Below are positions 54,580 through 58,821 of a stretch of 64,000 nt of DNA, piece by piece. The notes beneath the pieces are model-generated. The model saw only the letters and a list, made by a program, of their open reading frames with translations, did not search any database and had not been told where the DNA came from. The DNA comes from Paenibacillus sp. TCA20. GTDB lineage: Bacteria > Bacillota > Bacilli > Paenibacillales > Paenibacillaceae. The stretch lies in NCBI RefSeq assembly GCF_000732325.1, contig NZ_BBIW01000001.1, forward strand, positions 186,001-250,000, in the 5' to 3' direction. Within the stretch, counting starts at the first letter, position 1. Every line of letters begins with the position of its first letter. The position numbers and the translations under genes were made by a program.

Positions 54580-56609
54580 AGATTAACCACCCCGATACTT
54601 TGAATTTCAACATTAGGCTCCAGTTCGCTGTAGGATAACACCGGTATATCCTGCATCGTTCTTTCGATCAATTGCCGCAAATACATCCGGATTGTCGGTG
54701 AAGTAAGCACAATCGGTTGTTGACCCGTCTGAATCAATCGATTCACTTGCTCCATCAGCTTCTGATACAGCGTCTGACTGGATACCGGATCAAGCGCCAG
54801 ATAGCTCCCTTGCTCCGTCTGCTGGACACTCTCGGCGATCTTTTTCTCCAGATTCGGTCCAACCGTAATAACCCGCATCGTCTCCCCTTTTTGGGTATAC
54901 TGCTGTGTAATCTGTCTGGATAGAGCTTGTCTGACATACTCCGTAAGTACATCCGGATCCTTCGTATAGGTACCGTAATCTGCGAGCGTTTCAAAGATCG
55001 TCACCATATCTCGAATCGAGATTTTCTCACGCAGAAGTTTAGCCAATACTTTTTGAACATCTCCAATGGATAGAACAGATGGAATCAGCTCATCAACCAG
55101 TGCAGGATAATTCTCTTTCAAGTTATCCACAAGAGCCTTTGTTTCCTGACGACCCAGGAGCTCATGTGCATGCTTCTTAATCATTTCGGTCAAATGCGTT
55201 GCCACAACCGAAGGTGGATCTACAACGGTATAGCCGGACAATTCCGCCCGATCCTTGGTTGCTTCATCGATCCATAACGCGGGAAGGCCAAAAGCAGGCT
55301 CGGTTGTTTCAATCCCGGTTATAGAATCGTCATCATATCCGGGACTCATCGCCAGATAGTGATTGAGCAGAAGCTCGCCGCTCCCGACGATATTTCCTTT
55401 AATCTTGATCACATATTCACTTGGTCTTAATTGAATATTGTCTCTTATCCGAATCACTGGAACGACGAGTCCCAGCTCAAGAGCACATTGTCTTCGAATC
55501 ATGATGATACGATCGAGCAAATCTCCACCCTGTCCTGTATCTGCTAAAGGAATGAGTCCATATCCAAATTCGAATTCGATCGGATCCACTTGCAGCAGGT
55601 TAATTACACTTTCCGGACTACGCACCTCTTCAATCTGCTGCTCTTCTTCCATCTGTTCATCACTAATCTGCTGTTTGTTCAAATTCTGCTGCATCTTCCA
55701 GCCTGCGAAGAAGAGAATTAACGCAAGCGGCAGTGTCGTAATCAACTCAATGGGTGTGAAGAACCCTAGAAATGCTACTGTCGCTCCTACAATATAGAGA
55801 AGCTTCGGATAGGAGAATAGCTGGGATGTAATATCGTCCGCCATTGTACCGTCAGAAGCTGCACGCGTAACGATAATCCCGGATGCGGTAGAGATGAGCA
55901 GTGCAGGGATCTGGCTGACCAATCCATCTCCAATCGTTAACAGTGAGTAAGTCGACAACGCATCAGCAAAGCTCATACCCATCATTACCATACCGATAAT
56001 AAATCCGCCGACAAGGTTGATCAGCAGGATAACAATACTGGCAATCGCGTCTCCCTTAACAAACTTACTCGCACCATCCATCGCACCGTAAAAGTCCGCT
56101 TCGCGTTCAATTTTACTTCGGCGATCTTTTGCTTGATGCTCATTAATAAGTCCTGCGTTGAGATCCGCATCTATACTCATTTGCTTCCCGGGCATTGCGT
56201 CGAGCGTAAACCGAGCTCCGACCTCTGCTACGCGTTCCGAACCTTTCGTAATGACAATAAATTGAACGACGACCAGGATCAGAAACACGATAAAACCAAT
56301 AACCGGCTGACCACCAGAGATCCAGCTTCCGAAAGTGGCCACAACCTGACCCGCATAAGCATCCTGTAAAATGTGCTTTGTCGTTGCAAGGTTAAGTGCT
56401 ACACGAAATAGAGTCGTCACAAGCAGCAAGGAAGGGAATATGGAGAATTCCAGAGCTTCCTTCGTATTCATCGCTACCAGCAAAATAACCAAGGCTATAG
56501 CGATGTTGATAACCAATAATGCATCAAGTAGTCCAACAGGAATAGGGAGAATCATCATTAGCACGATGCCGATGATCCCGATCAGGATTGATAGGTCTTT
56601 AATTTTCAC
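54576..56609 (-). CDS. flhA: Flagellar export gate protein FlhA
   Basis: A 677-residue component of the type III export gate. Seven or eight membrane segments occupy about residues 10-310, with the FHIPEP signature region (TFGSWISGGQPVIGF and DAMPGKQMSIDADLNAG), and the C-terminal ~350 residues form the cytoplasmic substrate-docking ring. The start is a GTG at 56609, overlapping the flhB TAG by one base. Confidence 0.97.
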   Translation of the reverse strand: MKIKDLSILIGIIGIVLMMILPIPVGLLDALLVINIAIALVILLVAMNTKEALEFSIFPSLLLVTTLFRVALNLATTKHILQDAYAGQVVATFGSWISGGQPVIGFIVFLILVVVQFIVITKGSERVAEVGARFTLDAMPGKQMSIDADLNAGLINEHQAKDRRSKIEREADFYGAMDGASKFVKGDAIASIVILLINLVGGFIIGMVMMGMSFADALSTYSLLTIGDGLVSQIPALLISTASGIIVTRAASDGTMADDITSQLFSYPKLLYIVGATVAFLGFFTPIELITTLPLALILFFAGWKMQQNLNKQQISDEQMEEEQQIEEVRSPESVINLLQVDPIEFEFGYGLIPLADTGQGGDLLDRIIMIRRQCALELGLVVPVIRIRDNIQLRPSEYVIKIKGNIVGSGELLLNHYLAMSPGYDDDSITGIETTEPAFGLPALWIDEATKDRAELSGYTVVDPPSVVATHLTEMIKKHAHELLGRQETKALVDNLKENYPALVDELIPSVLSIGDVQKVLAKLLREKISIRDMVTIFETLADYGTYTKDPDVLTEYVRQALSRQITQQYTQKGETMRVITVGPNLEKKIAESVQQTEQGSYLALDPVSSQTLYQKLMEQVNRLIQTGQQPIVLTSPTIRMYLRQLIERTMQDIPVLSYSELEPNVEIQSIGVVNL

Positions 56610-57718
56610 TAGTTTCCATGCCTCCGATTCCCCTTATGATTCGATCTTCCTTTTAATTTGTAAACATAGGCTAGAATTTCAGCGACAGCCTGGAAGAGAT
56701 CTGCCGGAATGGAATCCCCGATCTCAGTCCTTTGGAACAAAGCTCTGGCAAGAGGCTTGCTCTCCATAAGCGCCACTCCATGCTCTTTGGCAATCTCCCG
56801 AATACGCAGCGCCATATGATCTGCGCCTTTCGCTATAACAGTAGGAGCCTCCATTTCATTGCCATCATATTTCAAAGCGACTGCAAAGTGAGTAGGATTC
56901 GTAATGATGACGTCCGCATTGGGAACTTCCTGCATCATCCGCTGCATCGCCATGCGTCTTTGCCGTTCGCGAATTTTCGCTTTAATGAGAGGGTCTCCCT
57001 CCATCTTCTTATACTCATCCTTGATGTCCTGTTTGGACATTCTAATGTTCTTCTCATGCTCATATCTCTGATACATGTAATCGAGAATAGATAGTACAAA
57101 TAAGGCTGCGCCAATATTGATTCCAAGGTCCAGCGTCATTTCCGCGGCGAATTTCAAGATCCCATCGAGTGATAACAGGCTGAGGCCGGCGAATTCATCA
57201 CGTGCACCCCACAGGATGTCGTAAACCAGATAGCCAATAATGACGAGCTTAAGAACGGATTTCAAAAGTTCCACGAGGGCTCGCATGGAAAAGATGTTCT
57301 TGAAGCCTTTGATCGGATCCAGCTTGCTGAATTTGGGTGTTACCCCTTCGCCTGTCAGCAAAAATCCAACCTGAATATAATTGGCCGCAAAACCGATGAT
57401 CACCGCGATGGCAAAGATCGGAGCAAGGAGGATAAGAATCTCCATTCCAAACTGCCCGAACATAACCATTACGTTCTCGCTTGTTACTTCCATATTCAGC
57501 CTGTTAACAAAGATATCCCTAAAGGCGTCTGCGATGCGTTCTTTGTAAAATTCACCAAAGATGAGCAGACACATGAAACAGGAGAGTAAAATGGCCGCTC
57601 CGGATATTTCCATACTTTTGGCCACTTGGCCCTTTTTACGAGATTCCTGACGTTTTTTCGGGGTAGCCTTCTCCGTCTTCTCCCCTGAGAACATCTGCAG
57701 GTCCAGTTTAAATCTCAT
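56609..57718 (-). CDS. flhB: Flagellar export switch protein FlhB
   Basis: A 369-residue export component. A Lys-rich N-terminus (EKTEKATPKKRQESRKKGQ) precedes four membrane segments, and the cytoplasmic domain carries the self-cleavage site NPTH (VIITNPTHFAVALKY) near residue 270. It lies 34 bases after the fliR stop, within the export gene run. Confidence 0.97.
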   Translation of the reverse strand: MRFKLDLQMFSGEKTEKATPKKRQESRKKGQVAKSMEISGAAILLSCFMCLLIFGEFYKERIADAFRDIFVNRLNMEVTSENVMVMFGQFGMEILILLAPIFAIAVIIGFAANYIQVGFLLTGEGVTPKFSKLDPIKGFKNIFSMRALVELLKSVLKLVIIGYLVYDILWGARDEFAGLSLLSLDGILKFAAEMTLDLGINIGAALFVLSILDYMYQRYEHEKNIRMSKQDIKDEYKKMEGDPLIKAKIRERQRRMAMQRMMQEVPNADVIITNPTHFAVALKYDGNEMEAPTVIAKGADHMALRIREIAKEHGVALMESKPLARALFQRTEIGDSIPADLFQAVAEILAYVYKLKGRSNHKGNRRHGN

Positions 57719-57752: not shown

Positions 57753-58540
57753 TTAAGCTCCCTGTTTAATCACTTCCAGTACTCCCTGCATAGCTTCAAA
57801 CATGACTGCGAACAAATTTTCAAATAAATATAACAGGCCTGGTATGGTGACCAGCATCATCGCAAGTCCTACCAGAATTTTTAACGGAACACCAATGACA
57901 AACACATTGAACTGCGGCGCAGTTCTTGCCAAGAAGCCGAGACCCACATCTGTCATAAACAGAGCGACAACAAGAGGTGCTGCCAGCTGAAATGCGAGCA
58001 TAAACGCCTGAGCGAAAGCGGTTATGATTAATTCCGCGATATTCCCGCTTGCCATTGCAGCAAACAGATCATTACCTACCAGCGGTACCCACTCGTAGCT
58101 GTACACAATTGCATCCAGCATTCGATGATGACCGTTCATGGTCAGAAATAACAGAACAGCAAAGGCATACTTCACATTCCCTGTCAAAGGAGCGGCTGCG
58201 CCTGTCATCGGGTCGTAGACATTCGCCATCCCAAACCCGATCTGAATATCGATAAATGCACCTGCTGTTTGTATCGCTGTAATCATGAGTAGTGCGATGT
58301 AGCCGAGCAGCAGCCCCATCAGTATTTCTTTCACAATGAGCAGAATATATTGACCATCCATCGGAATCGACTGATCTAAGCCAAATGTGAGGTACACAAT
58401 AACGGTAATAAAAAAGATATTCCGATCTTAAATACCCCTGGAACCCCTGGCGTAGAAAATATAGGTGCTGCTACAAAAAATGCTGTAATTCGACAAAAAA
58501 TAAGCAGAGCGACAGAAAAACCTTGAAGCATCATCTCCAT
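57753..58540 (-). pseudogene. fliR: Flagellar export protein FliR, interrupted by a -1 frameshift
   Basis: The gene for the FliR export-gate protein is in two frames. From the ATG at 58540 (11 bases after the fliQ stop, GGGTAGG upstream) the first frame reads MEMMLQGFSVALL... and GVPGVFKIGISF, then stops at a TAG at 58376-58378 after 54 codons. The remainder, starting TVIVYLTFGLDQSI in the overlapping frame, continues normally to the stop at 57753 and holds the usual FliR membrane segments (GFGMANVYDPMTG). Adding one T to the T6 run at 58410-58415 would give one intact 262-residue protein, the normal FliR size. The junction TTTTTTA (58409-58415) has the form of a -1 slippery heptamer in the correct phase. 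Sequencing error, phase variation, recoding or true inactivation are all possible. Confidence 0.85.
58409..58415 (-). other. T6A slippery heptamer in fliR
   Basis: In the initial fliR frame the codons are TCT TTT TTA TTA, so the heptamer T TTT TTA is in the X XXY YYZ phase needed for simultaneous -1 slippage. Reading ATT after TTA would enter exactly the frame of the remaining FliR. There is no strong stem-loop just downstream, only a 4-bp TGTG/CACA pair. Confidence 0.6.
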
Positions 58541-58551
58541 GTTGTATATGC

Positions 58552-58821
58552 CTACCCGATATAAGTATGAAGATTATCCAAAATGTTAAATGTGAAATCG
58601 ACCATTGTTGCAAGTATCCATGGCCCAAATAACAACAGCGCCACAAGCACCGCAATAATCTTGGGAACAAAAGCCAGTGTCTGCTCTTGGATCTGTGTCG
58701 TCGCTTGAAAAATACTGATAATAAGACCTACTACAAGCCCTAATACAAGCATTGGCGCACTGATTTCCAGTGCGATAAAAATCGCTTGCCCTGCCAGTTC
58801 AATGATAAAATCGGATGTCAT
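58552..58821 (-). CDS. fliQ: Flagellar export protein FliQ
   Basis: An 89-residue two-helix membrane component of the export gate (AMFIALEISAP-type first helix; QTLAFVPKIIAVL before the second). It is complete and placed between fliP and fliR. Confidence 0.96.
   Translation of the reverse strand: MTSDFIIELAGQAIFIALEISAPMLVLGLVVGLIISIFQATTQIQEQTLAFVPKIIAVLVALLLFGPWILATMVDFTFNILDNLHTYIG

Follow-up and report, generated by a model that had tools for sequence, protein, structure and literature searches.

The fliR gene of Paenibacillus sp. TCA20 is split between two reading frames in the deposited sequence, and this is probably due to a recent loss of one base from a run of seven T, which would inactivate the gene in the sequenced isolate. 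Within the window, by which we mean the whole stretch of 64,000 nucleotides analysed, fliR lies on the minus strand. A first-pass annotation made from the sequence had claimed that its two frames meet at a TTTTTTA heptamer (58409 to 58415), and direct reading of the minus strand together with its open reading frames (ORFs) bore this out. The text of the junction is GGA ATA TCT TTT TTA TTA CCG, with six T at 58415 to 58410 followed by the A at 58409, and the phase of the heptamer in the 5' frame is T_TTT_TTA. Starting from the ATG at 58540, the 5' frame passes through the junction as ATA TCT TTT TTA TTA CCG TTA TTG TGT ACC TCA CAT TTG GCT TAG and terminates at this out-of-frame TAG after 54 codons, as had been stated (ORF 58376 to 58540, minus strand). 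The encoded fragment matches positions 3 to 42 of the Pfam profile Bac_export_1 (PF01311) with an E value of 3.4e-8. The remainder of the gene is found in the -1 frame, which is open from ahead of the junction down to 57753. Its ORF (57753 to 58397, minus strand) comprises 214 codons if the count begins at a GTG, probably no genuine start, and matches positions 53 to 228 of PF01311 (E 1.7e-57). A single open frame for the whole of FliR is absent here; when the frame is shifted by -1 at the heptamer, the read-through has 262 residues and matches positions 3 to 228 of the 230 in PF01311 with an E value of 1.3e-69. A second, intact fliR that would make the split harmless was rejected, as a search of the whole genome (5.63 Mb in 32 contigs, 99.97% complete) detected no FliR other than the two pieces at this locus.

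Alignment with fliR from close relatives, which had been proposed as a check, revealed open genes throughout. In the nearest species, Paenibacillus sp. FSL H7-0326 and Paenibacillus sp. 453mf (FliR match of 98% each), fliR contains seven T and is open over 262 residues, the length that had been anticipated for FliR once the frame is restored. Both species read CTTTTTTTAT at the junction, where the window reads CTTTTTTAT, and the surrounding DNA is near-identical. In the next relatives, with 89-82% protein identity, the T-run is interrupted (TCGGTCTTTATT, TCCGTTTTTATT, TCTGTCTTTATC), and several more distant Paenibacillus also have six to seven T at the same site. FliR was present in 74 of the 75 genomes of the genus searched (strain TCA20 included), only that of TCA20 showing an interrupted full-length match, and the frames were full-length in all 109 related loci extracted. 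Since fliR is intact in the relatives and the nearest ones carry seven T, the six-T version is, as judged from these alignments, the loss of one base in this genome only and no conserved arrangement. A further single-base deletion of the same lineage was noticed ahead of the fliR start codon (about 58541-58545, minus strand), where the CAAAC shared by both nearest species and the one after them has become CAAC, and the spacer to the fliR start is one base shorter. It counts to some extent against a genuine loss of the T in fliR. Neither literature on fliR frameshifts in Paenibacillus nor a close plasmid record for the window was found.

The part of fliR behind the junction has kept the signature of purifying selection. 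When compared with the sister species, it differs in 30 synonymous and 4 non-synonymous codons, and 32 of 36 changes are at third positions. These values confirm the view that the remainder is intact and unfaded. Normal selection therefore appears to have acted on the gene up to very recent times, or to act on it still if the living strain lacks the lesion, and the lesion would be either very young or artefactual.

The neighbourhood is in good order, too, as had been asserted. The ORFs directly upstream (58552 to 58821, minus strand) and downstream (56609 to 57718, minus strand), which from position and protein sequence we take to be fliQ and flhB, respectively, are both intact, and flhB does not figure among the broken genes. 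Among window genes of at least 100 amino acids that are common to both close relatives, none is broken except fliR and a short antisense ORF. Elsewhere in the genome, three ORFs with a flagellin domain and two MotA-like ORFs are open. A wider decay of motility was thus rejected: apart from fliR, none of the shared flagellar genes in the window is broken, and flagellin and motA are open.

Frameshifts at homopolymers are well documented for the flagellar genes of cultured isolates, and the six-T fliR is most likely an event of this well-known kind with no special recoding signal. An ordinary run of seven T coding for Ser-Phe-Phe-Ile (TCT TTT TTT ATT) would have lost one T recently, most likely through replication slippage. 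The shifted frame would then stop after 54 codons, leaving only an N-terminal part of FliR, and truncated FliR would be expected to cause a failure of flagellar export, so that the sequenced isolate is predicted to be non-motile. If the T was lost in culture, motile and non-motile cells might be mixed. Among the four explanations that the first-pass annotation had offered, a recent inactivating mutation is the best supported; neither programmed recoding nor an evolved on/off switch is supported, and an assembly error is conceivable as a one-off consensus error, a systematic homopolymer error being disfavoured by indels and run lengths.

According to the last of these, the strain truly has seven T and an intact fliR, and the consensus dropped one homopolymer base, which we consider possible and rather unlikely. 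It would fit that a single base in a seven-base homopolymer is concerned, in a gene otherwise without decay and in a draft genome of 32 contigs. Around the locus, 400 kb were aligned with the corresponding regions of both nearest species (nucleotide identity of 93.5% and 88.8%). With the third genome used for polarisation, 76 single-base indels fell on the branch of TCA20 and 63 on the sister branch, which is no general excess, and deletions and insertions among them were balanced on both branches. Similarly, among the conserved seven-base A/T runs of the sister genome, 48 had the same length here and 5 were one base shorter, while the reverse comparison gave 48 and 3. As indels are similar in number and differences in A/T-run length are about symmetric, homopolymer errors are not generally abundant in this genome; systematic miscalling was rejected, and pervasive homopolymer error is disfavoured by these comparisons. 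On the other hand, the compared segment slightly exceeds the sister genome in mid-gene single-base frameshifts, with 4 of 277 compared conserved genes affected versus about 1 of 283, the cases having been chosen by eye from the listed indels. Besides fliR, they affect an ABC transporter gene (at about 152.7 kb of contig C32), a gene of unknown function (about 275.0 kb) and a methyltransferase-like gene (about 70.1 kb). Of the three other lesions, one is a change of CC to C and one is located in locally divergent sequence, which speaks against the error reading. Either ordinary pseudogene content or a few consensus errors could explain this small excess.

These three genes are situated on C32 outside the window. 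The ABC transporter gene (about 151143-152813) has a one-base insertion at an A7 run, and its ORF ends about 20% early in comparison to both close relatives. In the gene for a conserved 293-residue protein (about 274350-275290), the change of CC to C costs the first third of the frame. The methyltransferase-like gene (about 69854-70656) is cut to 183 of 255 residues by the insertion of one base into locally divergent sequence.

If the T is truly absent from the DNA, as a recent chance loss would have it, the six-T state might still be reversible or leaky. That it represents a natural reversible off state in the species, or that slippage on U_UUU_UUA provides a low level of FliR, is improbable; reversion may occur at a low rate, as in every short run. 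An evolved phase-variation tract, with which an adaptive contingency locus would switch motility by changes between six T (off) and seven T (on), is quite improbable. For such a locus, a long tract is expected to be kept. The tract of fliR is short and of a common type, as ORFs of the 400 kb contain A/T runs of six at 161 places and runs of seven at 51, and it was not kept across relatives, for the run is interrupted in the next ones. In 32 distinct fliR genes encoding Phe-Phe at this position, TTT TTT was observed 19 times, compared to 14.2 expected from the use of Phe codons elsewhere in the same fliR genes. This excess is only mild, and a maintained Phe-Phe T-tract was therefore rejected. 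Furthermore, the off state occurs in no other genome among the 74 of the genus with FliR (TCA20 included) or the 109 loci. What speaks for a switch is that any T-run may revert at some rate, that several more distant Paenibacillus likewise carry six to seven T here, and that reversible homopolymer indels are known in flagellar genes of Campylobacter, such as fliR and, in C. coli, flhA (PMC7677240).

Programmed recoding, in which full-length FliR would be restored at T_TTT_TTA by ribosomes that shift to the -1 frame or by slippage of the RNA polymerase, is highly improbable. The first-pass annotation correctly described the heptamer as being in phase for a -1 slip that joins the two halves exactly, and the frame overlap indeed contains a heptamer of the type X_XXY_YYZ (T_TTT_TTA, 58415 to 58409). 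However, both features are left automatically when one T is lost from the T7A in TCT TTT TTT ATT, and they therefore provide no independent evidence for slippage. The unfaded 3' part, which would fit recoding, is equally explained by recency. In-phase TTTTTTA by itself is unremarkable: in 355 mechanically chosen ORFs from the 400 kb of the genome there are 5 other such heptamers and 261 in-phase ones of the X_XXY_YYZ type. The two-frame arrangement is conserved in no relative, and a conserved slippery site was rejected in view of T7 and an open frame in the closest species and an interrupted run in the next ones. No downstream stimulatory structure was detected in the 85 nucleotides from the heptamer on, which fold no better than shuffled sequences (z +0.72, for folds without pseudoknots). 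In E. coli, U_UUU_UUA was reported to shift far less readily than A_AAA_AAG (PMC5009743). Signs of selection against transcriptional slippage usually appear where a run reaches about nine A or T (PMC1088944), and the run here is six. A trace of full-length product is possible, though recoding is unlikely.

If the loss of the T is real, a further consequence is that motility should not be read from gene content alone. Even in this case, the split fliR would teach nothing new on recoding. If it is an error, only a correction of the annotation is needed.

When compared with known systems, fliR of TCA20 shares with programmed -1 frameshifting of the dnaX type and with transcriptional slippage on 9A/9T runs a slippery heptamer that lies in phase where two frames meet. 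In contrast to those systems, the arrangement is unconserved, no stimulator was found, the run is short and the genes of the relatives are intact. A closer likeness exists to Campylobacter jejuni 11168mot-, in which fliR changed from T8 to T7, translation stops after 39 residues and the cells are non-motile (PMC7677240). Both cases concern the same gene, and in both a T-run close to its 5' end is one base shorter, with an early stop (39 versus 54 residues) as the result. In C. jejuni, the run consists of eight T, the culture gave mixed reads with both alleles at the run, and motile revertants were obtained (PMC7677240), whereas in the unrelated Gram-positive genus Paenibacillus the change is from seven to six and is known from the deposited sequence. 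The same study mentions further tracts in C. coli flhA and in C. jejuni fliP, flhB, flgR and flgS, where likewise a one-base homopolymer change switches off a flagellar gene (PMC7677240); in comparison to these, the tract in fliR of TCA20 is short and is seen there in the six-T state. The lesion in Paenibacillus fliR is of the same kind as the published, near-identical C. jejuni case, here in a Gram-positive genus.
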